DNA from: a virus
Reading direction: 5' to 3' (one strand)
DNA: 23,063 nucleotides
Virus record (IMG/VR): IMGVR_UViG_3300032160_000056
Coordinates: 1-23,063 of that record
Both the position numbers and the translations under genes were made by a program. Under the pieces are notes generated by a model. The model was not told the origin of the DNA and did no database searches. It saw only the letters and a list, made by a program, of their open reading frames with translations. This document shows positions 2,342-21,366 of this stretch, in pieces. The number at the start of each line of letters is the position of its first letter. Positions within the stretch are counted from its first letter, which is position 1.

Positions 2342-3040
2342 ATGCGGTTATCCGAGGAAGACTCCCTTGAGGGTAACACTCTCATATCGTTAGAGACACA
2401 GGACGACATGGAGCCGTTGCGCAAGTACACTCTGGCTTACATTCTGGGAAACTTCGGCGAATTTTTGAAGATGTTGCGCTCGCTCAAGAAAGAGGATCAG
2501 GAACTCCTTCTGTCTTACTATCTCTTGAGCAAGACGCAGAACACCCTGGCGGCGATCCACAAGTCCACGCAGACAGTCTGTAGCTTCCGTATCCGTATGG
2601 CGGTGAAGACACTTGCGTGCTTCATAATGATGGGTGGAGCACCGACCGTAGAAATGATGCAGACGATCCTCACCCGCGCCGGGTTGGAAGATACTCTCAA
2701 GAAAATCGGGCTATCGAAGATCGTTGACTTGTACGTTCGAACCCACAACTTCCAGAAGATATCCGAGTTGCACCACTTGCATCGCCCGGACATCCGCCGC
2801 GCGATGAGTCGCGCCTCTAAGCAGCTGATGGAGTCCAAGGATCCGCAGGAACACGCTTTGGGTGCTTACATTCACAGTTTGATTGATAAGGCGAATCCAG
2901 CGGGGCAAGGTTTCAGCAAGAGGAAGATGCAGAAGCAGTGCCACATATACAGAACTGACCCTAAGTGCCTTGGTTCTTTTGTTATTGATTTGAACGATCC
3001 TGATTTTGATACTTTCTTTGTAAGTCGTGCGAATCGATAG
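2342..3040 (+). CDS. Putative HTH protein with two sigma-region-4-like repeats
   Basis: 232 residues. Residues about 58-95 read like a sigma-factor region 4 or similar helix-turn-helix (LLLSYYLL...TLAAIHKSTQTVCSFRIR...KTL). A second segment, about residues 126-160 (IVDLYVRTHNFQKISELHHL...RPDIRRAMSRASKQL), has the same pattern, suggesting an internal duplication. This is pattern reading, not a family match. No SD precedes ATG 2342; ATG 2408 (Met23) has AGGA four bases upstream and may be the real start. The last 100 bases are AT-rich, next to the following endonuclease gene. A DNA-binding or transcription role is inferred; the exact function is unknown. Confidence 0.75.
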   Translation: MRLSEEDSLEGNTLISLETQDDMEPLRKYTLAYILGNFGEFLKMLRSLKKEDQELLLSYYLLSKTQNTLAAIHKSTQTVCSFRIRMAVKTLACFIMMGGAPTVEMMQTILTRAGLEDTLKKIGLSKIVDLYVRTHNFQKISELHHLHRPDIRRAMSRASKQLMESKDPQEHALGAYIHSLIDKANPAGQGFSKRKMQKQCHIYRTDPKCLGSFVIDLNDPDFDTFFVSRANR

Positions 3041-3086
3041 TGACTTACGTTTTCCAACTTCCCAGTATTATACAGGGAGGTATAAA

Positions 3087-4001
3087 ATGTTCGTCTATAT
3101 TATCGTCAACGACGTCAACGACAAAATCTACATTGGAAAGACCCAAGGTCCGTGTCTCTCACGATATCTGAAACAAAAAATACATGACGTGAAGAAGGGT
3201 TGGAACGGAGTTTCCTATCTCTATAATGCCATGAAACATTACGGCTCGGAGCATTTCCATATTCACCCACTCATCTCCACCCTCGCAACCAACGAGGAAC
3301 TCTGCTTTTGGGAGCGAGTATTGATTGCACAGTACGACTCCCAGAACCCGGATATCGGCTACAATATCTGTCGGGGTGGAGAAGGTCGTTCCGGGCCTCT
3401 ATCACTTGAAGCCAAAGCAAAATTCAAAGAAGGAATGATGAAGACTTGGACCGATCCAGAAAAACGAACCAAAAGATTAAAGGCCATGAAAATCGCTCAG
3501 TCTAATCCAGAAAGACGCGCTGAGATAAGCAGACAATCCAAAAAGAATTGGGATACAGCGGATTCTGAAAAACGTGTTGAGATGATAAACAGGATAAAGA
3601 TGTGTGCTGAAGATCCGGCCAATAAAGCAAAGGTTTTGATAGCCGGACGGAAACGTTGGGCGAAACAAGGCATGGTAGGAAAAGTTTTTGGCAAACTCAT
3701 TGTCAAGTCTGAAGCGGGGCGCAACGAGAACAGCCAGCGACTATGGGGCTGTCTTTGTGCTTGTGGTGAGTCAACTATTGTCACAACGAATCAACTCAAC
3801 ATGGGTAACACTAAAAGTTGTGATAAATGCAAAGAAGGGTGTAAAGGCTTAAAATGGGTTCATAAAATGGAAAAAGAGGCTAGAATCCAGAAATCCGAGG
3901 TTGACAGATTTATCAAAGAAGGGTGGGAATTAGGACAAGCCTTCGCAAGAAGAAACAAAGCCTTTGTATATTACGCAGCTCAAGTATTAGACTGTTTATG
4001 A
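3087..4001 (+). CDS. GIY-YIG homing endonuclease with C-terminal Cys-rich module
   Basis: 304 residues from ATG 3087, chosen because GGGAGG lies six bases upstream and the paralogue at 9554-10279 also starts with MFVYII; a longer frame from 3027 would overlap the previous gene. The catalytic core comprises MFVYIIV, KIYIGKT, a Glu in CFWERVLI and an Asn in GYNICRGG. The middle part has repeats typical of nuclease-associated DNA-binding segments (MKTWTDPEKR, KKNWDTADSEKR). Residues about 195-250 form the VFGKLIV...LWGCLCACGE...TKSCDKCK module that often precedes phage HNH or AP2 domains; the HNH gene at 15869 starts with one too. Bases 3301-3386 are identical to the paralogue. The stop overlaps the next start (ATGA). 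Confidence 0.94.
   Translation: MFVYIIVNDVNDKIYIGKTQGPCLSRYLKQKIHDVKKGWNGVSYLYNAMKHYGSEHFHIHPLISTLATNEELCFWERVLIAQYDSQNPDIGYNICRGGEGRSGPLSLEAKAKFKEGMMKTWTDPEKRTKRLKAMKIAQSNPERRAEISRQSKKNWDTADSEKRVEMINRIKMCAEDPANKAKVLIAGRKRWAKQGMVGKVFGKLIVKSEAGRNENSQRLWGCLCACGESTIVTTNQLNMGNTKSCDKCKEGCKGLKWVHKMEKEARIQKSEVDRFIKEGWELGQAFARRNKAFVYYAAQVLDCL
3301..3386 (+). repeat. 86-bp perfect inverted repeat, copy 1
   Basis: This segment is the exact reverse complement of 9974-10059 over all 86 bases. It encodes the residues CFWERVLI through GYNICRGGEG of the GIY-YIG core. Outside it the two genes diverge quickly at the nucleotide level. Confidence 0.95.
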
Positions 4002-4756
4002 TAAAAGGCCGTTACTTGGTGTATGAGCTTTGGCATCCAGATGAACTAAAGCCGTTCTATGTTGGGTGGACCGATACCTTCAAAAATCGGAATCGACTAG
4101 CCGAACATCTGAAAGACGGCAAGAATCCTGTTTCTGCAGGAAACCCGTTCAAGGCTCACAAGATTGCGAAACTTTTGAAGGAAGGTCGAGTCCCAACGTT
4201 TGTTGAAATTACCAGAATGGACTCGGAAGAAGATTCACTTGAGCTAGAAATAGCTTTTATCGCTTCTTGGGGACGACGTGACCAAGGACGGGGACCACTA
4301 ACTAATTTGACGGACGGCGGCGATGGATTCCGAGGTCACCATACAGAAGATACAAAGGAGAGAATCCGGAAGCACTCTCTTGAGATGTGGCAAGATCCGA
4401 ATTATCGGAGCTTAGTTATTCAGGCCCAAACAGCCCGCTGGCAAACTACTCCAGAACTAAGACAAAAGTTTCAGAAAAGATTCGCTGGAGAGGGTAATCC
4501 GTTCTATAGAAAAACACATACTCCGGAAGCTAATCGGTTGAACGCTGAGGCCCACACCGGAGTAGAAGTTTCCCCCGCTACCCGTATTAAATTGCGCGAC
4601 TCCCACAAAGGGCGAAGTCATTCAGAAAAACACAATCGAAACGTGGGTGATGCTCTCCGCAACGTTCCTAAATCTCCTATCCACATCCAACACTTGCGTG
4701 AGGCCGCGTTACACCGTCATGCGGAAAGAAGGCAAAATGCTTCTGCAATACGGTGA
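3998..4756 (+). CDS. GIY-YIG-family homing endonuclease with NUMOD3-like repeats
   Basis: 252 residues from ATG 3998, which overlaps the previous stop as ATGA; a longer frame from 3923 would lie inside the previous gene. No SD, so translation probably depends on coupling. The core is a divergent GIY-YIG: YLVYELW, FYVGWTD, NRLAEHL, ELEIAFIASWGRRD and NLTDGGDG. WGRRD...NLTDGG is shared with WGRKD...NFTDGG of the gene at 14787-15407, so the two form one subfamily. The C-terminal part has NUMOD3-like DNA-binding repeats (HTEDTKERI, HTPEANRL, SPATRIKLRDSHKG, HSEKHN). Its last 20 bases overlap the start of the NusG-like gene and contain that gene's start codon. Confidence 0.9.
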   Translation: MIKGRYLVYELWHPDELKPFYVGWTDTFKNRNRLAEHLKDGKNPVSAGNPFKAHKIAKLLKEGRVPTFVEITRMDSEEDSLELEIAFIASWGRRDQGRGPLTNLTDGGDGFRGHHTEDTKERIRKHSLEMWQDPNYRSLVIQAQTARWQTTPELRQKFQKRFAGEGNPFYRKTHTPEANRLNAEAHTGVEVSPATRIKLRDSHKGRSHSEKHNRNVGDALRNVPKSPIHIQHLREAALHRHAERRQNASAIR

Positions 4757-7004
4757 TGTTTCTTCGTTACAGGGTGCCCCCTGGTTTATGCTAGAATTGA
4801 GATCCGAGAAAACTATAGAACCCACTCTACGACGTCTGGGAAAATCGGTACCAGGGATTTTTCAATCAGATCCAGTGGAATTTTTTGTCCCAGTGTTTAA
4901 GCGAGATCTAGATATTTTTGAATTAAAGACCTCTAATTTGATTTTTGTCCGAAGCAAGAATTTCCAGGCTATGCTAAGACTTAAAACCGTAACTGGGATA
5001 GTGTGTATCATAACCGAAGGTGAATCCAACCGCCCCAACAAAGCTATCCCGGTGCAAGATGATTACGTGCAAGCCGTTATCAAAGAGGCCGAAACTGAAT
5101 TCCAGGACCGGGGTAAGGGGATCGGTGTGGGTTCATTCGTCCGTATTCTGAACGGTCCCACTCGTGATTACTGTGGTCACGTGGAAATCAGCAATGATGG
5201 TGTCGCTTGCGTCCGCGTAGATCTGAAAACGAAATCGCTGCTAGTCGAAACCCCCATACGTAACCTACTGAATCTCTCACAAGTGCCCCCCAACCAGCGG
5301 GTTTTCTACTATTGTGATCTGGTAGCCGAGCTTGCGAAGGACGGTCTGTTGCATCTCATAACTGAAGATCTGAAGTTGGACGAAACCACCCCGGCGATAG
5401 AGAATGTTACCGAAGGTGATGGCGTAGAAGAGCCGCGTCGTCATAGTCGTCAGCGGACCGTGACGGCGTTAGTAAAGAGAATGATTCTCATCGAGAAGAA
5501 GTACGATCCGATGGAGATTGCCAATGCCGTTGTATTAGCGTTGAAGAAGAGAGATATCAAGGCACCGAAAAATCTATTTATTGTTTACTGCACACCAGGT
5601 GATACAATGATACAGGGTCCCGTACCCTTCGCTGCTGCGGAACAACAAACGAGAGTTTTGGACCACGAGGGCAACTTCAGCGACATAACTGCACATATCG
5701 AGAGACCTTACGTTGGTCCTTTGAAGAGAATCACTTTTCTGGGTAATCTTCCGCTAGAAATTACACCGGAACACGAGATTCTGGTACTCCGTACCAACAG
5801 AAAGTACCTGGTAAAAGGGAAGAGATATCCCCTGCGTCCGCATTGGGACAAGCAGGGAGGAGGCTGGAAACGAGTTTGGGTTCCGGCTTCGGAGGTTTTA
5901 GAAACAGATTTTGTTCTTTGTCCAGAAAACCTTCCGGGAACTACGGCAAGACCCGAATTTATCATCTCACAGCATCCAAATGCAAAGACGGTTGTTTCTG
6001 AGATACGTCCAGATGAAGATCTAGCCTGGCTGTTTGGTCTATACATAGCGGACGGAGGGATATCCCGTGTTTCCACGGGTGAGAAACTCCCCAACGGATT
6101 CAGTATCTGTCTTAATAAGCGCACTAGCCGTGTGCGCATAACGCGGGCGCTGGCTAAGTTAGGGATGGACGTGACATTTGAGGAGTACCCTACTTATGGA
6201 AACGCCCACGTCAATTCCGTTTCTCTAGGCCGGACGTTTTTGAGATGGTTTGGAGCCGACTGCTATTCGAAGCATATTCCAGAATTTATGTACAATTGGG
6301 GGCAGAAATACCTTCAAAGTCTGGTTGAGGGAATAGCCGAAGGAGATGGAACAGATTGCAGCGATTCAACGCCGGGAGCAACTCAAGTTTACACAACTTC
6401 CCGAGTTCTCGCCTATCAACTTTGGCATATCCTAGTGACACTTAGGGCTCATCCATGCTTGAGTCTAGTTCCTCGGGAAGAAGGAGAAACAGTCACCATA
6501 AAGGGAATCACTTCCAAAGTAGCCCCGGCGTGGTACGTTTGGTGGACTGATAAAAATCGTAGGGCACGCCATCACACCTTCTATTATGAAGGCTATTATT
6601 GCATGCCAGTGAGGTCTCTGGAAGATTTTCCGTTTGAAGGGACCGTTTACAACAAATCCGTTTCTCCTAGCGAAACTTACGTGGCAGGGGGAATTTGCTG
6701 TCACAATTGCATCATAAAAGACAACTTGCTCAAAAACCATTTCAAGTTGTTGGATTCCAAGCTGACCAACTACCGTGAAGTGGTCCATAAATTCGGTAAG
6801 CAGTTCAAATTCTCGCATACCGAGATCGCCAAGCTAGACCCGAATTTGGGAATCCCACTCGTGACGCTGGAAATCTGTAAGGATGGTCGGAGTCGTGAGG
6901 CCCGTCAGCGGAACAAGCTCAAGTCCGTGCGCCCCGCGTCCGTCCCAAAAGTTGTAACCCACGCCCCGCCCGCGCTCAAAGTTCTCCTTAAAAGAAAGGC
7001 TTAA
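4737..7004 (+). CDS. NusG-like (NGN + KOW) transcription factor, intein-interrupted
   Basis: 755-residue precursor from ATG 4737 (AAGAAGG just upstream). Residues about 15-115 match a NusG N-terminal domain in order: WFMLEL, an Arg-rich helix, EFFVPVFKR, LIFVRSKNF and the IVCIITEG strand. Residues about 133-170 are a KOW domain (GSFVRILNGPTRDYCGHVEI). A C-terminal extension follows that classical NusG lacks. The intein occupies residues 285-657 in this extension; removing it gives a 382-residue protein (284 + 98). NusG proteins bind RNA polymerase and affect pausing and termination; a phage antitermination or late-transcription role is inferred. The basic tail (LKVLLKRKA) may bind nucleic acid. 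The N-terminal bases look AT-rich, next to the upstream endonuclease. Confidence 0.85.
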   Translation: MLLQYGDVSSLQGAPWFMLELRSEKTIEPTLRRLGKSVPGIFQSDPVEFFVPVFKRDLDIFELKTSNLIFVRSKNFQAMLRLKTVTGIVCIITEGESNRPNKAIPVQDDYVQAVIKEAETEFQDRGKGIGVGSFVRILNGPTRDYCGHVEISNDGVACVRVDLKTKSLLVETPIRNLLNLSQVPPNQRVFYYCDLVAELAKDGLLHLITEDLKLDETTPAIENVTEGDGVEEPRRHSRQRTVTALVKRMILIEKKYDPMEIANAVVLALKKRDIKAPKNLFIVYCTPGDTMIQGPVPFAAAEQQTRVLDHEGNFSDITAHIERPYVGPLKRITFLGNLPLEITPEHEILVLRTNRKYLVKGKRYPLRPHWDKQGGGWKRVWVPASEVLETDFVLCPENLPGTTARPEFIISQHPNAKTVVSEIRPDEDLAWLFGLYIADGGISRVSTGEKLPNGFSICLNKRTSRVRITRALAKLGMDVTFEEYPTYGNAHVNSVSLGRTFLRWFGADCYSKHIPEFMYNWGQKYLQSLVEGIAEGDGTDCSDSTPGATQVYTTSRVLAYQLWHILVTLRAHPCLSLVPREEGETVTIKGITSKVAPAWYVWWTDKNRRARHHTFYYEGYYCMPVRSLEDFPFEGTVYNKSVSPSETYVAGGICCHNCIIKDNLLKNHFKLLDSKLTNYREVVHKFGKQFKFSHTEIAKLDPNLGIPLVTLEICKDGRSREARQRNKLKSVRPASVPKVVTHAPPALKVLLKRKA
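5589..6707 (+). mobile_element. Intein with LAGLIDADG homing endonuclease
   Basis: 373 residues in frame. Splicing motifs run in the standard order: Cys1 in CTPGDTMI (block A), ITPEHEIL with the TxxH motif (block B), LFGLYIADGG (block C, precursor Asp439), LVEGIAEGDG (block E, Asp537), TVYNKSVSPSETYVAGG (block F) and GICCHN followed by Cys+1 (block G). The terminal His-Asn and the Cys at both junctions are intact, so splicing should be possible. Both LAGLIDADG motifs keep their catalytic Asp, so the endonuclease may also be active. The insertion point is ...FIVY|CIIKD..., in the extension of the NusG-like protein. No frameshift is seen. Confidence 0.95.
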
Positions 7005-8012: not shown

Positions 8013-8660
8013 GTGACCCGACCAGAGATTCTATCAATTCGCGTTCCTAACGCAGATTTTACTCCGTACTTTGCCTTTCTTGCGTCATTAGTCCCACTTG
8101 GCAAAGGAGGACACGAACATCACATCCTGCCTCAGAAGGAATTCCCAGAGTTCATGAAGGATCCAAATAATTTAATCCGATTAACACCGGGAGACCACTT
8201 TAAAGCTCATTATTGGCTGGCAAGATGTGCACCGAAACATGCGTCATTTCAAATAACATTCTTCTTGATGTCGAATAGAAAATTCTCACAACAGGTTACT
8301 GTCAACAAATTGCCAGAATACACTAAAATCTATGAAAGAGGACAAGCAAGGCAGGCAGAAGGAGGACGAATTCAAGGGCGAAGGAATAAGGAAAATGGTT
8401 CGATCCAGAAGTTAGGAGCAAGTGGTGCAGGTGGAAACGCCCACGTGAAAAGTGGGTTTATTCTGGAGTTAGGGAAAAAGTGGGGGGCTAAAAACTTTGC
8501 TAAGGTGAGAACTCCCAAACACCAGAGTGTCGCGGGGAGAACATCCAGCCATGTTCGCTGGCATGTCAAAAGAGGCATAATCAGTCCCGCTTGTAGGATT
8601 TGTTTACAGATGCCCCTTCTTGGCCCAGACGGGCGGTTACTCTGGGGAGAGACAATCTGA
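8013..8660 (+). CDS. HNH homing endonuclease
   Basis: 215 residues. Residues 34-70 form an HNH motif: HEHHILPQ (His36/His37), NNLIRLT (Asn53) and DHFKAHYWLA (His62, His66), as in phage HNH homing nucleases. The C-terminal end, SSHVRWHVKRGIISPACRIC, resembles a short His/Cys-containing tail seen on other phage endonucleases and may bind DNA. The start is GTG 8013, with no good SD; a stop at 7992 and the lack of other nearby starts leave little choice. It runs antisense to the flanking minus-strand genes. The stop precedes the ATG of the T5orf172-type gene by one base, so the two form a pair. Confidence 0.88.
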   Translation: MTRPEILSIRVPNADFTPYFAFLASLVPLGKGGHEHHILPQKEFPEFMKDPNNLIRLTPGDHFKAHYWLARCAPKHASFQITFFLMSNRKFSQQVTVNKLPEYTKIYERGQARQAEGGRIQGRRNKENGSIQKLGASGAGGNAHVKSGFILELGKKWGAKNFAKVRTPKHQSVAGRTSSHVRWHVKRGIISPACRICLQMPLLGPDGRLLWGETI

Positions 8661-8661
8661 A

Positions 8662-9195
8662 ATGTCTCTCCTCAGGGGTTACTTGTATGTTATTGCAGAT
8701 AAAGATCGTAAGTATGCAAAAGTGGGGATGTCCAGAGATGTGCTATCACGGTTTGTTGACCTTCAATCTTCCTGTCCACTTCATCTTGAAATTGTTCATG
8801 CTTTTCCGTGCACCTATGTTAGTGTGAGAGAAGTCATGGTACATCAGAAACTGAAAGAATTATGGGTTAGAGGAGAGTGGTTTCATTGGGACGAAGAGCG
8901 AATCCGCACAGCGATGGCTGATGTTCTAGCTTTCCCGGACGATACTATCAAGAAGACTCTTGCCGAACGAGGTTTGTTAGATGTAAAATCGAAACCAAAA
9001 AAGCCCTACGATTACCCGGTTAAACGATTGGACACTGGCGAAGCATTTCCCAGCGCAAAAGTGGCCGCTCTGACTGTGTTTGGATCAGCTCACATAGCCT
9101 CCAAAATCAAGAAATCAATAAAACAGAATTGTTTTTGTGGGCCGTGTAAATGGGCAGTTGCCGAAGATGATGAGGTCGTCTGGCCCGTTTCTTAA
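8662..9195 (+). CDS. T5orf172/MUG113-type (GIY-YIG superfamily) endonuclease with NUMOD-like tail
   Basis: 177 residues from ATG 8662 (GGGGAGAG upstream); a longer frame from 8620 would overlap the HNH gene. The N-terminal 90 residues follow the T5orf172/MUG113 pattern, a GIY-YIG relative: GYLYVIAD, KYAKVGMSRDVLSRF, LQSSCPLHL, VREVMVHQKL and GEWFHW. The C-terminal residues (about 115-170) read as a NUMOD1-like DNA-binding module: VKRLDTGEAFPSAKVAAL, then IASKIKKSI and CKWAV. The stop lies four bases from the stop of the convergent minus-strand membrane-protein gene, with an 8-bp tandem repeat across the junction. Confidence 0.85.
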   Translation: MSLLRGYLYVIADKDRKYAKVGMSRDVLSRFVDLQSSCPLHLEIVHAFPCTYVSVREVMVHQKLKELWVRGEWFHWDEERIRTAMADVLAFPDDTIKKTLAERGLLDVKSKPKKPYDYPVKRLDTGEAFPSAKVAALTVFGSAHIASKIKKSIKQNCFCGPCKWAVAEDDEVVWPVS

Positions 9196-9553: not shown

Positions 9554-10279
9554 CTATCTTTCTCTATTATGCTTTCCACAAGTACACGGTTTTCCTCGGT
9601 TGATGTTCCATTGTTTACAACTGGTAATGCGCCCGCCTAAAGCCCTATCTTCATACGTGGTTTGAGCGCGCATCTTAGCCAATTGACCACTTTCCAAATT
9701 CTTTTGCCCGCCCTTACGGACAGCAGCTAAATGCTTTTCCGGATGGTCTTTTATCCATTTTCTCAAACCCTCGTTGGCTTTGGCTCGAATGCTGTCTAAT
9801 TGTCCACTATCAACAGCAGCTTGCCCGCCTGCACGACCCCCGGGAGAACGATATCGACCTTCGACTATCTTCATGTTAGAGACAGCGCGTTTTCTGATTT
9901 CGGGATTTTGCCACATGAGACGAGAATTTTCGGCTATTTTTAGGCGCGTTGATTCAGGGTGCGTCCCAGTGAAACCTTCTCCACCCCGACAGATATTGTA
10001 GCCGATATCCGGGTTCTGGGAGTCGTACTGTGCAATCAATACTCGCTCCCAAAAGCAGATTTCTTCATTGGTGGTTAGGGTAGATATGAGGGGATAAATA
10101 GACCAACCTTCTGGACCTTGGTACTTTTTCATTGCTCGGAAAAGATGAGAGCGACCTTGATATTTATCCGTTCTAGCGTCGTGGAGCTTCTCGCAGAGAT
10201 ACTTCTGGAGGTTCTTAGTGACTGTCTTACCTACGTAGATCTTATCAGTTATGTGATTGATAATAATGTAAACGAACAT
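9554..10279 (-). CDS. GIY-YIG homing endonuclease (paralogue of 3087-4001)
   Basis: 241 residues; ATG at 10279 has AGAGG seven bases upstream. The core has MFVYIII, KIYVGKT, a Glu in CFWERVLI and an Asn in GYNICRGG, so the catalytic set is complete. The middle and C-terminal parts carry HPESTRLKIAENSRLMW and GGQ/GGR-containing repeats, ending in a small CxC...H motif (CTCGKHN). It lacks the long Cys-rich module of its paralogue at 3087. Bases 9974-10059 are the exact reverse complement of 3301-3386, although the rest of the two genes has diverged. It lies between the virion-like gene 10331-11122 and the membrane-protein gene 9200-9550, all on the minus strand. Confidence 0.93.
   Translation of the reverse strand: MFVYIIINHITDKIYVGKTVTKNLQKYLCEKLHDARTDKYQGRSHLFRAMKKYQGPEGWSIYPLISTLTTNEEICFWERVLIAQYDSQNPDIGYNICRGGEGFTGTHPESTRLKIAENSRLMWQNPEIRKRAVSNMKIVEGRYRSPGGRAGGQAAVDSGQLDSIRAKANEGLRKWIKDHPEKHLAAVRKGGQKNLESGQLAKMRAQTTYEDRALGGRITSCKQWNINRGKPCTCGKHNRER
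9974..10059 (-). repeat. 86-bp perfect inverted repeat, copy 2
   Basis: Exact reverse complement of 3301-3386. It includes all synonymous positions of the shared coding segment, so protein selection alone does not explain it. Confidence 0.95.
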
Positions 10280-10330: not shown

Positions 10331-11122
10331 CTAGCTGTTCTGTCCGAACAACCAGGCGGTAGTTTGCGCCGTGCCGTTGGTGCCTTTGACCACCCGTAAG
10401 TAATTCCAAACCAAGCACGAAGGATTGAACATCGCGCCGGTAGCGCCGGTTGATCCGCTGTTGAACACGACTTGCGACTCTCCAAATTCCCCCGACGGTC
10501 CAGTCCAACCACTTGAAGTAAACACACCTGAAACATTGATGCCCGATGCTGGGCTGCCTGAAGTGTTTGAGCCGGGAACCGCAATTGCGTTCGTCTGGAA
10601 TGCGTAGAGAAGGAAAGGTTCGCCCATGGGGACCGGACCTCGGAACTGCCCTGCCCACATGCCACTTGGGCTGGCTGCGTAGTTTTGCAGGCAATACGGG
10701 CCACCATTCAGGCTGAGATACACATTGTACCCGTAGGCCAAGCCGGCAGGATCCTGGGCCGGGGAAGCGAGTTGTAGACTTTGGTTGGCAGCTACCACGA
10801 AAGACCCTGAAGCGGTGCTTCCGGTGGTCTCGCCCGCGTCTGTCAGGTAAGTCACAATCGCTGTGTAAGATCCGGGATTTGACAACGGCGCGGTGATGTT
10901 GCCAGGAGAGTAAATGAATAGGCTTAGAACCGGCGCGGAACCAGGCGCGGCGATTGCGGTCCCGTTTGTTTCGACATTCGGATCGTTGGAGGCTTCAATC
11001 CAGACCGGCGATCCGTCCAATTTGCCTAGTTGTACGGAGAGAGCCGACAAGTTAGAGATGTTACGCCAAGCTCCGGCAGCGGCGTTCGTAGAGCTGAATA
11101 GAAGGTTGTTTACAGGCAACAT
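10331..11122 (-). CDS. Putative virion protein with Fn3-like region
   Basis: 263 residues; ATG at 11122 with GGAGA seven bases upstream, an SD that lies inside the 3' end of the preceding endonuclease gene. The protein is poor in charge and rich in Gly, Ser, Thr, Ala and Asn. Residues about 85-145 (YTAIVTYLTDAGET...YGYNVYLSLNGGPY) resemble a fibronectin type III-like beta sandwich, a fold common in phage tail and surface proteins. The C-terminal part has a GSTGATGAMF stretch and ends in strand-like WNYLRVV and TAWLFGQ. A structural role is inferred; I do not know the exact protein. It resembles the 7101-7919 product in style but shares no clear sequence. Confidence 0.75.
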   Translation of the reverse strand: MLPVNNLLFSSTNAAAGAWRNISNLSALSVQLGKLDGSPVWIEASNDPNVETNGTAIAAPGSAPVLSLFIYSPGNITAPLSNPGSYTAIVTYLTDAGETTGSTASGSFVVAANQSLQLASPAQDPAGLAYGYNVYLSLNGGPYCLQNYAASPSGMWAGQFRGPVPMGEPFLLYAFQTNAIAVPGSNTSGSPASGINVSGVFTSSGWTGPSGEFGESQVVFNSGSTGATGAMFNPSCLVWNYLRVVKGTNGTAQTTAWLFGQNS

Positions 11123-11745
11123 AAAGAAGTCTCCATTTTTGTGTATCTAGGTTGAGGTTCGTAAAACGGTTTCCCATAACGAGAAGCTAACGCCTTATGG
11201 GATAACCAAGCCTTATATTCGGGAGACCGAAGATTCATCTTATCCTTGATGGCTTGATTATGCTTTTCGGAATTTTTGGTCCCTAGTTTAGCATTTGCGA
11301 GAGCCTTTCGATGTTCATGAGAAAACACACGATTTTTCATTGCTTTTGATTGGGCTTGTCTGGATTCTTCTGAAACCTTGTGGCCTAACTGTGAGTTGGA
11401 CATGATGCGTTTAGTTTCTGTTGTGTGCCTACGATTCGCCATTGGTCTTCCTGCTACGAGAGCGATGTTGTACCCGGTTTTCACGGCGTCGAATATATCG
11501 ATCGCTAGTTGTTCTTGCCAAAGGAGATTTTCTTCTAAACAAAGTGTTAGGATTTCAAATTCGAATACTTTAGAGCCATATTTTCTCCAGGCAGCTTGTA
11601 GATGAGGGTTGTCGTGAATGCCAGTTCGCAGTTTACTAAGATGGGTTTTTCTACGATTTTCTATGTCCGAAGAGCTACCAACGTAAACTTTGCCGTTTAA
11701 GGTGTTCAACCAACGGTAAACCCCGCAATTGAAAGGATTGCCCAT
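11110..11745 (-). CDS. GIY-YIG homing endonuclease with NUMOD3 repeats
   Basis: 211 residues, ATG at 11745. The core has CGVYRWLNTLNGKVYVGSS, NRRKTH, a Glu in LLWQEQLAI and an Asn in GYNIALVAG, so the active site is complete. C-terminal NUMOD3-like repeats follow (HTTETKRIMSNSQLG, VSEESRQAQSKAM, FSHEHRKALANAKLG, NSEKHNQAI). The shared WLNTLNGKVYVGS links it to the plus-strand gene at 1625. Its last 13 bases overlap the start of the virion-like gene 10331-11122. The gap 11746-11851 upstream separates it from the divergent gene at 11852; I see no convincing promoter there. Confidence 0.94.
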   Translation of the reverse strand: MGNPFNCGVYRWLNTLNGKVYVGSSSDIENRRKTHLSKLRTGIHDNPHLQAAWRKYGSKVFEFEILTLCLEENLLWQEQLAIDIFDAVKTGYNIALVAGRPMANRRHTTETKRIMSNSQLGHKVSEESRQAQSKAMKNRVFSHEHRKALANAKLGTKNSEKHNQAIKDKMNLRSPEYKAWLSHKALASRYGKPFYEPQPRYTKMETSLCCL

Positions 11746-11851: not shown

Positions 11852-12535
11852 ATGGGTATACTCCGTTTCGTACAAATGGCAGGAATCGGTGGATTTCCGA
11901 AGGAATCTAGAGGAAAGCGCGTTGTTCTTCACGATGTAGATGGTATCAGCAAGAAATCTGGTACCGATGAATACGGAAACCAATGGACACAATTTGAAGT
12001 GGACTACATGGCTGAACAACTACCCGGAGAGTGTTCCATTTGCGGAAAAGAACTTGAATCAGGTTGGATGTGTCTGGACGGTGATCGGGTCGATTTCGGT
12101 GGCCTTGACAATCGTGGTGAAGAAGTTTGTGACGAGCACGTGGTTTACGCCGAAGATCTAAGTGAATTGTTGAAGCACGGAATCAAGTTTAGCTTCGATG
12201 AGCCTCTTGAACCCGTTCTTAAAGAAATCAAGTCCAAAAAAGAACAACGGAGAAATCGGGATCTTTTGCGTGCACGTAGAGGCAACAAGAATCATCTTGC
12301 TTCAGAACCGAATGCAGAAACCAAGCGGAAGATCGCCAGCATGGGACTAACTAGGTGTGCTGGAAATGTATACGAGGCACCCAGCACTAAAGACTTTTGG
12401 CAAGTTTCAAGTGATGGTGGTATCAGACGGTTGTGTAGTGGAGACGAAGTGGATAATGGAGAAAGCATTGCAGCGGCTCCCAAGGACCAACCCATGGAAT
12501 TTCTGAGTTCTATCTTGGATGATCTTTCTTTTTAA
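11852..12535 (+). CDS. Hypothetical phage protein with treble-clef-like zinc motif
   Basis: 227 residues, ATG 11852 with AGGAG ten bases upstream. Residues about 61-96 form a Cys/His motif: CSICGKELESGWMCLDG (Cys61, Cys64 and a third Cys), then EVCDEHV. This looks like a zinc knuckle with C-C-C-C/H ligands, a style common in small phage proteins. Residues about 125-150 are very basic (KSKKEQRRNRD...RARRG) and could bind nucleic acid. The C-terminus is acidic and Ser-rich. Family not recognised. The next gene is an endonuclease that starts one base after this stop. Confidence 0.8.
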   Translation: MGILRFVQMAGIGGFPKESRGKRVVLHDVDGISKKSGTDEYGNQWTQFEVDYMAEQLPGECSICGKELESGWMCLDGDRVDFGGLDNRGEEVCDEHVVYAEDLSELLKHGIKFSFDEPLEPVLKEIKSKKEQRRNRDLLRARRGNKNHLASEPNAETKRKIASMGLTRCAGNVYEAPSTKDFWQVSSDGGIRRLCSGDEVDNGESIAAAPKDQPMEFLSSILDDLSF

Positions 12536-12536
12536 C

Positions 12537-13358
12537 ATGATTGTTTACAAAATCAAAAATCGAGAGAATGGAAAGGTTTACATCGGGAAATACTGTGGAG
12601 AAAACGCCAGTGATCGATGGAAGCAACACCAAAGGTGTGCAAAAGCGGATGATTCTGGCTATCTTTATAACGCACTTCGAAAATATGGTTCTGAATCTTT
12701 TACTCTAGAGGTTCTCTACACAGCAAAGACTCTAAAAGAGCTTTCTAAGATGGAAACTTTCTTCATAATCTTACACCAGAGCCAAAAACCAGAGAATGGC
12801 TATAATTTGACTTTAGGCGGGGACGGGGCGTCACCGGGTGAATTCAATTCTATGTGGGGAAAGACTCACACACCAGAAGCACGAGCGATTATGAGTGAAG
12901 CGACGAAGAAAATGTGGTCGGAATCTCGGGAAGAACTAATCAAAGCCCAACGCGCAGGATGGACTACAGAATGCCGAAAAGTTGCTAGTGATTATAGAAA
13001 ATCTCATCCAACTGCGCTCCCCGCTAATCTTTGTGAACCATTCCGAGAAACTATTTCGAATCTTGTACAAAGTAATAGATTAGTAAACGCCAAAGAAGTA
13101 ATGAAAATGGTTACTCCTTTAGGGTTTAAAGGTAGTCTGGGTGATATTTTTGAATATCTGTTCAAACTTCGAGGGCCAAAATCTCAATACGTGAAACAAA
13201 TAAGAGAAGTCCCTGCGTTCTGCCAGAACTGTGGCAGGGATATGCCTTCAGCTCGGGATACGTGGGATGCGAAAAATCGTAGGTTCTGTTCCAGAATTTG
13301 CGCGAATAGATGTCATTTCAAAAAAGTGAAAGGAGCGGCATCTGCAACCGCCGCATAA
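12537..13358 (+). CDS. GIY-YIG homing endonuclease with C-terminal zinc finger
   Basis: 273 residues from ATG 12537, one base after the previous stop; ATG 12519 is an alternative that would overlap the previous gene. No SD before 12537, so coupling is likely. The core has MIVYKIKN, KVYIGKYCG, RWKQHQ, a Glu in METFFII and an Asn in GYNLTLGGDG. A NUMOD3-like HTPEARAIMSEATKKMW follows. The C-terminal 50 residues carry a CQNCGRDM...RFCSRICANRCHF zinc finger, not seen on the other GIY-YIG genes here. The gene appears AT-rich. The following gene starts four bases after the stop. Confidence 0.93.
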   Translation: MIVYKIKNRENGKVYIGKYCGENASDRWKQHQRCAKADDSGYLYNALRKYGSESFTLEVLYTAKTLKELSKMETFFIILHQSQKPENGYNLTLGGDGASPGEFNSMWGKTHTPEARAIMSEATKKMWSESREELIKAQRAGWTTECRKVASDYRKSHPTALPANLCEPFRETISNLVQSNRLVNAKEVMKMVTPLGFKGSLGDIFEYLFKLRGPKSQYVKQIREVPAFCQNCGRDMPSARDTWDAKNRRFCSRICANRCHFKKVKGAASATAA

Positions 13359-13362
13359 TATT

Positions 13363-14790
13363 ATGGCTGATCATTACAAATCAGAAATTGATCGTCTCCT
13401 AGCCGACAACATGCCAGATTTTGAAGAAGTTCAAATGGCGGGGGCAGAAGCTTCGGGTAAGGACCAACTTGAACGCACCCATAAATATCAGGAAGAAGAT
13501 TTTCTTGATGGTCTCACTGACATTTCGGAAGTGGATTCGTACCACTCTATGCTACCGGCAGGCGGCAGAGGCGGCAAACGTACCGGCTCGCAGCAATCGG
13601 AAGATCGCGTAAGAGACCAGGAGTCCTCCATGCCCCGGCTCAGCGCGTCCAAAGTGATCAACCGCACGGCTCGAGCTTTGAGCGACGAGTCAGCGTTCTT
13701 CGACGTAGTGATGGACTTGGAGAAAGCTAAAGGTTACTTTAACGATAAGCGCGAAATTTCAAATGAGGAAGTGCAAGCCTACATCAAGAAGATGCTCAAC
13801 CATGGCGTGCCTCCGGTTAAGATTCAAGCGGCATTGAACAAAATGGCCGAGCTGCAGTTGTTCCAGCACAACATGGCGACGGACTACTTGAACCGCAACG
13901 CGGGCTTGCTGGGCATAGCATATCTCCAGCCGAACGATTTCATGGACAAATGTCCCACCACGTACGAACGTCTGAAGGTGAAAGGTGCGGGCAAGATCCA
14001 GGCCAAGTCTGTAAAGCAGATCCAGGCTTGTGAAGGCTGTATGTTTTTCAAAAAGGACGCGGGCCAAAAGACGTGCAACCTTTATCACCTGCCGGTCATC
14101 AGTTCCCAAAACGAGTTACTTACTGTTGTCAATAAGATGACAGCGGGTGTCCCGGCTAACCAGAAGAAAGCCGCGTTGGTGAAGATTGCCAACCACGAGC
14201 CTGAGAGAACCCCGATGATCAACCACGTGGTTTCTTCCCGGCCTTCGCAGAAAGTCGTCAACACTAGTCCGAGCCAAGCACGTGATAAGCAGAAGAGAGC
14301 ATCTTTTGAACTCACCGCTGGTCACATCGAGAAGCTACACAATGCGGGCAACACACTAGAGAAGATCTATGACTTTGCTTCGAAGAAAGTCGGGACCGCT
14401 AAGGCGGGCCGCGCTGTCCGTGAGTTCGTGGCCTCTCTAAAAGAGCACCACACCAAGATTGCGCTCTCGCAAATCGATTGCACTTTCTTAAAACAGAAGC
14501 TGGGAGTACAAAATGCTATCGTTGGAGCAGCCAAATGTGGTTCTTGTACTTTCCGCCAAGGGATGCATTGCGGCTTGACAGGCGGCACGCTAGTGAGCTT
14601 CCCGGGCATGGATAAGCAGTCATCCAACCACAAGATCGCCGCTGGTGCGCCGAAGGACGGTCGCGCTATGTTGCAGGAATTTGACAGCACAGCACCTTCG
14701 CCTATAAAAGACCTTGAAATAAATGATTCAGGACCTGAACGGTTAGATGTTAAGATGGGGAGCATTATGACAGCAGGTGATTTAGAGTGA
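13363..14790 (+). CDS. Unknown phage protein with two repeated Cys clusters
   Basis: 475 residues, ATG 13363, with no SD; reinitiation after the endonuclease stop is likely. Two Cys clusters share one plan. The first is Cys197-x25-Cys223-x2-Cys226-x11-Cys238 (CEGC...TCNLYHLP). The second is Cys373-x18-Cys392-x2-Cys395-x7-Cys403 (CGSCTFRQGMHCGLTGG). Each could hold one zinc ion or one Fe-S cluster. Residues 1-90 are acidic and hydrophilic; 95-185 look helical (VINRTARAL...YIKKML...LNKMAEL). Family not recognised. Base composition changes within the gene: 13861-13920 is 58% G+C by hand count, while 14701-14760, next to the following endonuclease, is 38%. Function unknown. Confidence 0.85.
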   Translation: MADHYKSEIDRLLADNMPDFEEVQMAGAEASGKDQLERTHKYQEEDFLDGLTDISEVDSYHSMLPAGGRGGKRTGSQQSEDRVRDQESSMPRLSASKVINRTARALSDESAFFDVVMDLEKAKGYFNDKREISNEEVQAYIKKMLNHGVPPVKIQAALNKMAELQLFQHNMATDYLNRNAGLLGIAYLQPNDFMDKCPTTYERLKVKGAGKIQAKSVKQIQACEGCMFFKKDAGQKTCNLYHLPVISSQNELLTVVNKMTAGVPANQKKAALVKIANHEPERTPMINHVVSSRPSQKVVNTSPSQARDKQKRASFELTAGHIEKLHNAGNTLEKIYDFASKKVGTAKAGRAVREFVASLKEHHTKIALSQIDCTFLKQKLGVQNAIVGAAKCGSCTFRQGMHCGLTGGTLVSFPGMDKQSSNHKIAAGAPKDGRAMLQEFDSTAPSPIKDLEINDSGPERLDVKMGSIMTAGDLE

Positions 14791-15407
14791 TCTTCTATAC
14801 CTACCTCTGGCTTCGTACCGATGGCTCTCCTTATTACATAGGCAAGGGACATGGCCAACGTGCCTATCGAAAAGGATGCCCATCTGTAGAAATCGTTCCG
14901 GATTTCATATCTGAGCCAGATTCTACTCGGATTCTTGTACAAGAATGGCCCGACGAAGCCACAGCCTTTGCTTACGAACGATACCAGATTGACTTTTGGG
15001 GACGAAAGGATCTAGGCACAGGAATTTTGAGAAATTTCACGGACGGTGGAGAAGGAGTTTCTGGTATACGATTTACTCAAGAAACTCGTCGAAGGATGAG
15101 TGTTTCCCATTTAGGCCAAAAAATGTCTGAAGAATTCTGTAAGATAGACAGCGAAAGTCATAAAGGTCTTAAACATTCCTTGGAAACTAGAAGAAAGATT
15201 AGTGAAAATCAAAAAGGAAAAATGATTACAAACACTAGCAGAAGAAAAATGAGTGACAGCCATAAAGGGCTTTCTCCTTCCATGGAAACCAGGGAGAAAA
15301 TGAGCAGAGCGCAAAAAGGACGTGTTTTTTCTTTTAAACATCGGTTGGCTTTGAGCCTATCCCGCCAAAAAGTTGCGAGAATGGAGATACAGAATGCCAA
15401 CGGTTGA
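14787..15407 (+). CDS. GIY-YIG-family homing endonuclease with multiple NUMOD3 repeats
   Basis: 206 residues. Start GTG 14787 overlaps the previous stop as GTGA, with AGGTG about seven bases upstream. The core has IFYTYLWL, PYYIGKGHGQRAY, a Glu in FAYERYQIDFWGRKD and NFTDGGEG, the same subfamily as the gene at 3998. The C-terminal half is almost entirely NUMOD3-type repeats, each about 16-25 residues: FTQETRRRMSVSHLG, SLETRRKISENQKG, TSRRKMSDSHKG, SMETREKMSRAQKG and FSFKHRLALS. Such repeats wrap along DNA to give long recognition sites. Its 3' end contains the SD (GGAG) and ATG (15394) of the next gene. Confidence 0.92.
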   Translation: MIFYTYLWLRTDGSPYYIGKGHGQRAYRKGCPSVEIVPDFISEPDSTRILVQEWPDEATAFAYERYQIDFWGRKDLGTGILRNFTDGGEGVSGIRFTQETRRRMSVSHLGQKMSEEFCKIDSESHKGLKHSLETRRKISENQKGKMITNTSRRKMSDSHKGLSPSMETREKMSRAQKGRVFSFKHRLALSLSRQKVARMEIQNANG

Positions 15408-15867
15408 TCAGCCCCTTAATATTTCAGAAGAATTTGGGGATCCCCTTACTTTGAAGATAGAGGATCCTTATGATCTTATCCTATTTCGTATTAAAGACCC
15501 AAATTGTCCAGTAGCCGAAGTGGGTAGGATGATATCGGTAGAAATTGCCAAAGCTACTAGAGATTTAGCTAAACTTGCACAAGATCCAACGATGGTATGG
15601 AGAAGCAAGCTCATCATGGACCAAATAAAATCCCTACGAGAATTAAATCGACAGCTGTCCGAGACCGAAGTTCTAAGTCGGAAAGACATGTTGAACATGG
15701 ACGGACCGAAGTGCCAGTTCTTCACCCGTGAACTCGCCAAGCTGTACAAGAAAGCGTTAAAAGATGCTGGTTGTGAAGGTTCTTTGATAGAAAACGCAAT
15801 CCGTCATTTCGCGGATTTGCTGGCTGTAGACCAAGACCGAATTCGTCGTGAGTTGGAGGGAGTATAA
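15394..15867 (+). CDS. Conserved-looking phage protein, unknown function
   Basis: 157 residues. I chose ATG 15394 because GGAG lies seven bases upstream; a TTG at 15373 in the same frame lies deeper in the endonuclease gene. The product is soluble, mixed-charge and mostly helical, for example RDLAKLAQDP...LIMDQIKSLRELNRQL. It has no Cys clusters or membrane segments, and I do not recognise the family. By hand count, 15421-15480 is 37% and 15541-15600 40% G+C, whereas 15661-15720 is 50%. The half nearest the endonuclease therefore differs in composition from the far half, as expected if flanking DNA was co-converted during homing. Confidence 0.8.
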   Translation: MPTVDQPLNISEEFGDPLTLKIEDPYDLILFRIKDPNCPVAEVGRMISVEIAKATRDLAKLAQDPTMVWRSKLIMDQIKSLRELNRQLSETEVLSRKDMLNMDGPKCQFFTRELAKLYKKALKDAGCEGSLIENAIRHFADLLAVDQDRIRRELEGV

Positions 15868-15868
15868 C

Positions 15869-16600
15869 GTGAAGTTGATTGATATGAAAGGACGTCAGTG
15901 TGGCAAATGGGAGGTGCTCTCCTATGCTGGAGACGGTAATTGGAATTGTCGTTGTGAGTGTGGAACAGAACGTCCGGTTGCAGGGGTTAATCTACGCGAT
16001 GGATGGAGCCAAGATTGTGGATGCGGACGGAAGGAAACACTTCGTCAGCGTAATCAAACTAAAGTTCAAAAAGAAAAGGTTGTTCATGGCTTAACCGGGA
16101 AACCAAAATCTCCCAAACATTGCGAGAATATTTCAAAGGCAGCTAAAATTCGCAATAATCAACCTGAATACCACGCGATGCTGGTGGAAAATGGAAAGAA
16201 GGGCGCGGCTGGGTTGGTGGAAAGAAACAAGCAACGAGCGTATTCTCCCGAAGAGACTAAAGAACGCAGTTTAGAAGATTTGTTTCGTAGCTATCGTGGG
16301 GACGCGGCTCTTCGTGGTCTGACTTGGCAACTTTCTCGAGCTGATTTTGATGTTCTAGTGTTTGGATATTGCCACTATTGCGGCCAGGAGCCTCGACAAG
16401 AACGCAAATTTTTGATCAATGGGGGCATTATTTACAATGGCATTGATCGCGTAGCCAACGAGCTAGGTTACTTTTTCGCTAATTGTGTGTCTTGTTGTGG
16501 TCGTTGTAATTGGTGGAAAGGTCAACTTTCAAAGCAAGAATTTCTTGAGCATGCTAGCAAGATAGCTTCCCACGCTCAAACTATGAAAGCAGGAGCATAA
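15869..16600 (+). CDS. HNH homing endonuclease with N-terminal Cys-rich module
   Basis: 243 residues from GTG 15869, chosen for GGAGGGAG six bases upstream and its position one base after the previous stop. Residues about 8-50 are a Cys-rich module (GKWEVLSYAG...NCRCECG...DCGCGRK) of the kind found in phage endonucleases; a related one sits at the C-terminus of the GIY-YIG gene at 3087. A basic linker follows. Residues about 125-235 are the HNH nuclease: RSYRGDAALRGLTWQLS, CHYCG (Cys168/Cys171), YNGIDRV (Asn190), NCVSCCGRCNWWKG and QEFLEHASKI. The paired Cys residues should bind structural zinc. The last bases contain the SD of the 1317-residue gene. Confidence 0.93.
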   Translation: MKLIDMKGRQCGKWEVLSYAGDGNWNCRCECGTERPVAGVNLRDGWSQDCGCGRKETLRQRNQTKVQKEKVVHGLTGKPKSPKHCENISKAAKIRNNQPEYHAMLVENGKKGAAGLVERNKQRAYSPEETKERSLEDLFRSYRGDAALRGLTWQLSRADFDVLVFGYCHYCGQEPRQERKFLINGGIIYNGIDRVANELGYFFANCVSCCGRCNWWKGQLSKQEFLEHASKIASHAQTMKAGA

Positions 16601-20568: not shown

Positions 20569-21366
20569 ATGGCGACGACAATTGTTCCAGCGACCGGGGC
20601 ACCCGGTTCGCCGGCAACTCCGACAACGGCAGCGAAGGCAATGACTCAGATAAACCCTGGTCCAATTCGGACATTCCTTAAGGATCATGAAACACTGCTT
20701 ATCGTCTGCATCCTAGTTGTCTTTGTTTGGTTCTCCTACGGCAAAATAGCCGACGTCATCGCAGAGCATGACAACAAAGTTCTCCAAGCGCAGAAACTTG
20801 TCACCGATGCTGATGCCAAGGCCGCTGTGCAACTTCAGGCGGTTGTGAAGCAAGACGCAGAAAATCTCGCAACTATCACCGCACAAAAGGATGCTGCTAA
20901 TGCCCAACTTGCCCAAGCGAATGCAGCGTTATCAACTGCGCTGGCAGCTCGTCAAAAGACAGATGCGACTCTCCCGCTCCCGGAGCTTGCTGCGCGTTGG
21001 CAGGTTCTTGTTCCTTCTGCAACCCCGGTGGCTACGACTTCCGGCGTCGCTGTTTCTGCTTCTGGAGCAGTGGCTACGGTAGTCGCGTTGGAACAAATCC
21101 AGCCACTGAAGGATCAACTTGCGAATGAGACGACGGCTAAAGCAAACGATGATGTGATGTTGACCGCTGCTAACAAGAGCATCACGGATTTGAATTCGCA
21201 AGTAGCCGGTGTGACCAAGCTGGATACGGATCACCAGGCTCAATGCAAGGACGAGAAGAAAGTCCTTGTGGCGCAAGCACGCAAGTCGAAACGACGTTGG
21301 TTTATCGCTGGCTATGTTGCCGGCTTCATTTCACGGCAATTGATCAAGACTGAAACAGGATTCTAA
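20569..21366 (+). CDS. Membrane-anchored coiled-coil protein, inner-membrane spanin candidate
   Basis: 265 residues, ATG 20569 with AAGGAGAGG upstream. After a Pro/Ala/Thr-rich N-terminus, one strong membrane helix spans about residues 42-58 (LLIVCILVVFVWF). A long Ala/Gln-rich coiled coil follows (about 65-130), then a Ser/Ala/Val-rich linker and a second heptad region (about 175-225). The C-terminus is basic (ARKSKRRW) and followed by an amphipathic or hydrophobic stretch (FIAGYVAGFISRQL). This order resembles Rz-like inner-membrane spanins, which help disrupt the outer membrane in Gram-negative hosts. No separate outer-membrane lipoprotein partner is visible, so this is a candidate only; a tail-associated coiled-coil protein is the alternative. 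Confidence 0.8.
   Translation: MATTIVPATGAPGSPATPTTAAKAMTQINPGPIRTFLKDHETLLIVCILVVFVWFSYGKIADVIAEHDNKVLQAQKLVTDADAKAAVQLQAVVKQDAENLATITAQKDAANAQLAQANAALSTALAARQKTDATLPLPELAARWQVLVPSATPVATTSGVAVSASGAVATVVALEQIQPLKDQLANETTAKANDDVMLTAANKSITDLNSQVAGVTKLDTDHQAQCKDEKKVLVAQARKSKRRWFIAGYVAGFISRQLIKTETGF

Follow-up and report, generated by a model that had tools for sequence, protein, structure and literature searches.

A gene for a phage NusG/Spt5-like elongation factor has very probably been invaded by a mobile LAGLIDADG intein which, judging from the sequence, would splice itself out of the precursor and home into empty alleles. Inteins are common, and this one is apparently a known type of element at a site unreported so far. 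The evidence favours a genetic parasite over a regulatory switch: most likely, the element is selfish and is tolerated since splicing leaves it almost silent. Its putative host gene, found in the 23,063-nucleotide stretch of viral DNA analysed here (hereafter the window), would encode an NGN domain, a KOW domain and a phage-specific helical domain.

The precursor gene (4737..7004, + strand) encodes a NusG-like protein and the intein in 755 aa, 382 of which are predicted to remain after splicing. Its frame is uninterrupted, with no internal stop or frameshift over 755 codons, and its ATG is the start also used by intein-free homologues. The N-extein (4737..5588, +; 284 aa) contains an NGN-like region (residues ~14-126), a KOW-like region (~130-180), a linker and the first half of a helical C-terminal domain, as assigned from Foldseek and VIA comparisons with the PDB, PHROG 6386, KOW5_SPT5 and hhalign with E. 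coli NusG. The intein (5589..6707, +; 373 aa, precursor residues 285-657) consists of a splicing domain and a LAGLIDADG homing endonuclease. The C-extein (6708..7001, +; 98 aa) completes the helical domain with its second half and adds a basic tail; it joins the N-extein gaplessly in L002, L005-L010, L012 and other homologues.

All residues of a class 1 intein (C1, TPEH, H372-N373, C+1) are present and kept in three homologous inteins inserted at the same site, the window intein included. Cys1, the block A nucleophile (TGC, residue 285; 5589..5591, +), and block B TPEH (intein residues 59-62; 5763..5774, +) are invariant in the three. The same is true of the acidic residues of the two LAGLIDADG motifs, D155 in GLYIADGG (6051..6053, +) and D253 in GIAEGDG (6345..6347, +). 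The sequence then shows the block G pair His372-Asn373 and the extein Cys+1 (6702..6710, +): Asn373 (AAT, precursor residue 657) ends at 6707 and the Cys+1 codon occupies 6708-6710. The first-pass annotation, which had placed an intact intein with a LAGLIDADG nuclease at 5589-6707, was thus exact in its coordinates, and all the residues it named lie in one frame. Canonical inteins carry an Asp in block F (VYD); the corresponding position is Asn, not Asp, in all three same-site inteins. In addition, a Cys-Cys pair precedes His-Asn in the window intein. The block F substitution could make reaction steps slow or conditional.

Taken alone, the window intein matches Pfam Intein_splicing (E 0.0012) and LAGLIDADG_3 (E 0.0045) below the gathering cut-offs. 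With the two homologous same-site inteins, the best E-values reach 2.5e-8 and 4.9e-10, respectively. A profile of the three inteins matches the PI-PkoII (E 6.6e-6) and Pho RadA (E 2.4e-4) inteins, and the NCBIfam model PRK14898 (RNA polymerase A'') matches the window intein (E 2.8e-4). An AlphaFold prediction of the intein from its single sequence, without alignment, has a pLDDT of 33. The weak single-sequence Pfam scores and the non-canonical block F might indicate a decayed intein that has lost its nuclease or its splicing activity, leaving the gene effectively split or inactive. This is highly improbable, given the absence of stops and frameshifts from the frame and the retention of all named catalytic residues in three inteins that are 48-61% identical; the block F Asn, being common to the three, is not decay private to the window intein.

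Intein-free homologues delimit the element precisely. A scan of viral contigs with the N-extein retrieved L001, an identical, filled contig of 9.5 kb, and L002, a locus with 81% identity that is the closest empty allele. L002 encodes an intein-free protein of 392 residues that reads NLFIVY/CIIKDNLLKNHF (the slash marks the insertion site) and is 82% identical over the whole extein. When relatives from wider viral-contig scans were included and identical proteins counted once, 22 distinct alleles were obtained, 19 empty and three filled: those of the window, of L011 (contig 3300044801_000208) and of L016 (contig 3300041809_000637). The extein junction proposed at the outset, between residues 284 and 658, passed cleanly, as homologues without the intein run exactly through it (...NLFIVY/CIIKDN...) and the 19 distinct empty alleles join exactly there. 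The assembled sequence of one of them, L014, is frameshifted. Since these alleles read through the junction and the catalytic residues are kept at 48-51% identity, the intein is not a chance reading. The +1 residue is Cys in all filled alleles and in most empty ones, and Gly or Thr in others. A scan of genome contigs for the extein family found no member. Two metagenome prefixes each include both an empty and a filled allele (3300010379, L001 filled and L034 empty; 3300041809, L016 filled and L047 empty), which indicates that homing targets coexist with carriers.

That the interrupted protein is NusG-like appears strongly probable. The evidence converges on a protein that looks like NusG/Spt5; its strength by sequence is low, and its main basis is a predicted fold and a PHROG match. 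The AlphaFold model of the homologue L004, built from nine sequences, is of moderate confidence (mean pLDDT 66, pTM 0.35). When it was compared with the PDB using Foldseek, all of the top 25 matches were NusG/Spt5 proteins, with E-values from 4.4e-6 to 1e-3 and with NGN and KOW jointly covered, showing a KOW barrel downstream of an NGN fold; VIA gave Z-scores of 7-8, close to its stated background. PHROG 6386 (“transcription antiterminator”) matches six of nine family members (best E 3e-5), and in L004, where the range is printed, the match extends from the end of NGN to KOW. One family member matches a KOW model (KOW5_SPT5, E 8e-5). The best PDB sequence matches are NusG proteins (E 0.06-0.2), the sole NCBIfam match of the N-extein is antiterm_UpxY (E 0.006), and hhalign aligns the end of NGN through KOW with E. 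coli NusG at 27% identity (E 0.0011, probability 21%). Finally, an extein homologue of Tunturiibacter phage Tunturi_5, gp25 (PP885688.1, 25259-26293), is 50% identical and annotated as a transcription antiterminator; it is intein-free, with Gly at +1 where the window has Cys.

Alternatively, this could be a phage protein whose function is unrelated to that of NusG and which has no more than a KOW barrel in common with it. In a six-frame search of 13 phage records, Pfam NusG (PF02357) had no match at E<=1, and it weakly matches two members scanned singly (best E 0.038, below cut-off). The pTM of the model is low, the VIA scores are near background and the C-terminal half has no match at all; the helical domain alone, searched against PDB sequences and Pfam, gave chance-level matches only. 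Against this reading stand the uniformly NusG/Spt5 Foldseek matches across NGN and KOW, the PHROG 6386 and antiterm_UpxY matches and, despite its modest probability, the hhalign alignment, so that we regard it as unlikely. The initial assignment of the host as NusG-like therefore stands for the N-extein, by its NGN-KOW fold, its PHROG match and its 50%-identical annotated homologue, and does not extend to the C-extein, with PF02357 remaining below cut-off. As for the factor's target, no RNA polymerase beta subunit (PF00562) or RpoB homologue was found in eight relative phage records, which suggests that it would act on the host polymerase.

The intein was said to lie inside a NusG-like protein; this is correct for the gene and not for the NusG core, as the element sits in the extra C-terminal helical domain. 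It interrupts neither NGN nor KOW, both of which are wholly within the N-extein. The insertion point lies in a helix predicted at residues 280-299 of L004, where prediction of the helical domain after KOW is best. Few stretches of the family are as conserved as this one, IKAPKNLFIVYCIIKD, and inteins usually sit in conserved stretches. Placed in the C-terminal domain after NGN-KOW, the intein is hence outside the part expected to bind RNA polymerase. An extra Cys/His-rich tail (CGEC..H...H...C...H.W...PCWC), possibly zinc-binding, is present in L005, L007-L009, L011, L012, L035 and L038, and missing from the window protein and L002.

Given the conserved chemistry, the precursor would self-splice by the standard Cys1-Asn-Cys+1 pathway, releasing the 373-aa intein and a mature factor of 382 aa. 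Once free, the intein would act as a LAGLIDADG endonuclease: in related phages infecting the same cell, it would cut the empty allele, presumably at the conserved ...NLFIVY/CIIKD... site, and repair of the break would copy the intein into the cut allele. Standard intein splicing and homing, with splicing and cleavage both inferred from sequence, would account for everything seen.

Comparison of the three inteins supports mobility. All are placed directly after the same Tyr. The window intein is 48% and 51% identical to the other two, and those of L011 and L016 share 61%. For L011-L016, inteins and exteins are about equally similar (61% versus 59%), whereas for window-L011 the inteins are less similar than the exteins (48% versus 61%). 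Values of dN between inteins range from 0.33 to 0.53 with saturated dS, so that no dN/dS value can be given; they point to constraint at the protein level. In a maximum-likelihood tree of the exteins, the carriers fall into three separate supported groups, each beside empty alleles; the starred branches force three changes, and none of the bootstrap trees (0%) unites the carriers. Hence, at least three gains or losses of the intein have occurred. Part of this scattered distribution could reflect ancient presence followed by losses instead of gains. The L011 intein has a GC3 of 59.7, in conflict with the 82.5 of its N-extein and the 92.1 of its C-extein; this composition suggests that it arrived there fairly recently. 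A clear clash is absent in the window (intein 44.8, exteins 48.2 and 66.3).

The first-pass annotation had also proposed that splicing could gate the activity of a transcription factor. Such a conditional switch would sense temperature or redox state (through Cys1/Cys+1), or impose a delay, and would thereby hold the factor inactive until the right moment of infection. The host protein is indeed probably a transcription factor, insertion in helix 280-299 should disrupt the precursor there, and the block F Asn together with the Cys-Cys before His-Asn might make splicing conditional. However, the intein is missing from 19 of the 22 distinct alleles, near relatives included, NGN and KOW could work unspliced from within the N-extein, and a search for a regulatory motif or a conserved association found none. 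A switch is therefore very unlikely. It is hardly probable, too, that conditional splicing determines when the C-terminal domain assembles, turning a selfish element into a post-translational switch of jumbo phage gene expression. The gating proposal is not supported: absence from most alleles, combined with repeated gain or loss, argues for a parasite and not for a needed regulator.

The surroundings of the gene are rich in other nucleases. The window carries about eight free-standing nuclease genes of GIY-YIG, NUMOD3 or T5orf172 type and two HNH-like ones, and ~10 homing-endonuclease-like genes in 23 kb is an unusually dense load. They include nuclease-like genes at 1625-2266, 3084-4001, 8620-9195, 12519-13358 and 14787-15407, two on the - strand (9554-10279 and 11110-11745), and the HNH-like genes at 8013-8660 and 15848-16600, which were read by eye and have no Pfam match. 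A further GIY-YIG/NUMOD3 endonuclease gene (3998..4756, +; NUMOD3 E 5.9e-7, GIY-YIG E 0.003), separate from the intein, shares its last 20 nt with the beginning of the NusG-like gene; it is missing at the homologous place in L002. Several nuclease genes of the window are absent from this syntenic contig or replaced by others.

A nuclease gene lies just before the NusG-like gene in the window (3998-4756), L016 (2017-2724), L011 (4183-5004), L034 (3282-4004) and L042 (3224-3973). The nucleases landing there belong to different families (GIY-YIG, HNH), and some overlap the start codon. Among near-identical empty alleles, L042 has an upstream nuclease gene and L046 does not. We considered a free-standing homing endonuclease gene as a constant companion of the intein and rejected it: one abuts the gene start in all three carriers, but also in the empty L034 and L042. 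In the empty L008 and L038, a free-standing homing endonuclease gene is found on the other strand. As such genes occur there with or without the intein, the region before the NusG-like gene is a general nuclease hotspot, and the intein is just one among numerous elements that have invaded the region.

In most readable loci of the relatives, a clamp loader gene, the NusG-like gene and a gene for a coiled-coil protein are conserved in synteny. In the window and L002, this order is broken, the nearest upstream non-nuclease gene being a Q-like antiterminator gene. This gene (2342-3040) is weakly similar to phage antitermination protein Q (Pfam E 5.8e-5, PHROG 79 E 0.0017) and unusually conserved, with 96% identity in L002 versus mostly 70-80% for its neighbours. 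The coiled-coil, membrane-like protein is encoded directly after the NusG-like gene in most relatives and at 20569-21366 in the window, 13.5 kb away, which points to insertion or rearrangement. In L022 (contig 3300044801_000208, about 76 kb), from the same phage as L011, a DinG/Rad3-like helicase gene is apparently interrupted by two more inteins, one of which is near a DEAH-like motif. Among cultured phages, the nearest relative is Tunturi_5, a jumbo phage of 309 kb with an Acidobacteriota host; other relatives are on contigs of up to 463 kb. The empty alleles into which the intein would home belong to jumbo phages, probably of Acidobacteriota, and the window's phage may likewise infect Acidobacteriota.

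The element resembles the LAGLIDADG class 1 inteins PI-PkoII (2cw7) and Pho RadA, with which it shares Cys1, block B TxxH, His-Asn and Cys+1, as well as a two-motif LAGLIDADG nuclease between the splicing halves. It differs from them by its location in a phage NusG-like protein and by the replacement of the block F Asp by Asn. According to excerpts of PMC5050341, mycobacteriophage inteins are sporadic and located in nucleic-acid-binding proteins, and both splicing and active homing nucleases have been shown. The hosts named in these excerpts are terminases, RecB-like, RDF, nucleotidyltransferase, methyltransferase, TOPRIM, portal, thymidylate synthase and helicase proteins; a NusG-family protein is absent among them. 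Inteins with a homing nuclease in a transcription protein are known from archaeal TFIIB (Iwai 2017, as cited in an excerpt of PMC7765530) and RNA polymerase A'' (PRK14898); those hosts are cellular proteins, in contrast to the phage NusG-like factor described here. In the portion of the open-access literature covered, judged by titles and abstracts, no earlier report of a natural intein in a NusG-family protein or antiterminator was found.

Overall, a NusG/Spt5-type protein, in a phage-encoded version, can be added to the known intein hosts. The new insertion site, occupied by divergent inteins in three alleles and empty in 19 distinct others, is well suited for measuring homing and splicing. 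It also draws attention to a NusG-like protein about which little is known and whose C-terminal domain is novel, from large soil phages that apparently do not encode an RNA polymerase. If splicing were conditional, the parasite would control the timing of phage transcription.
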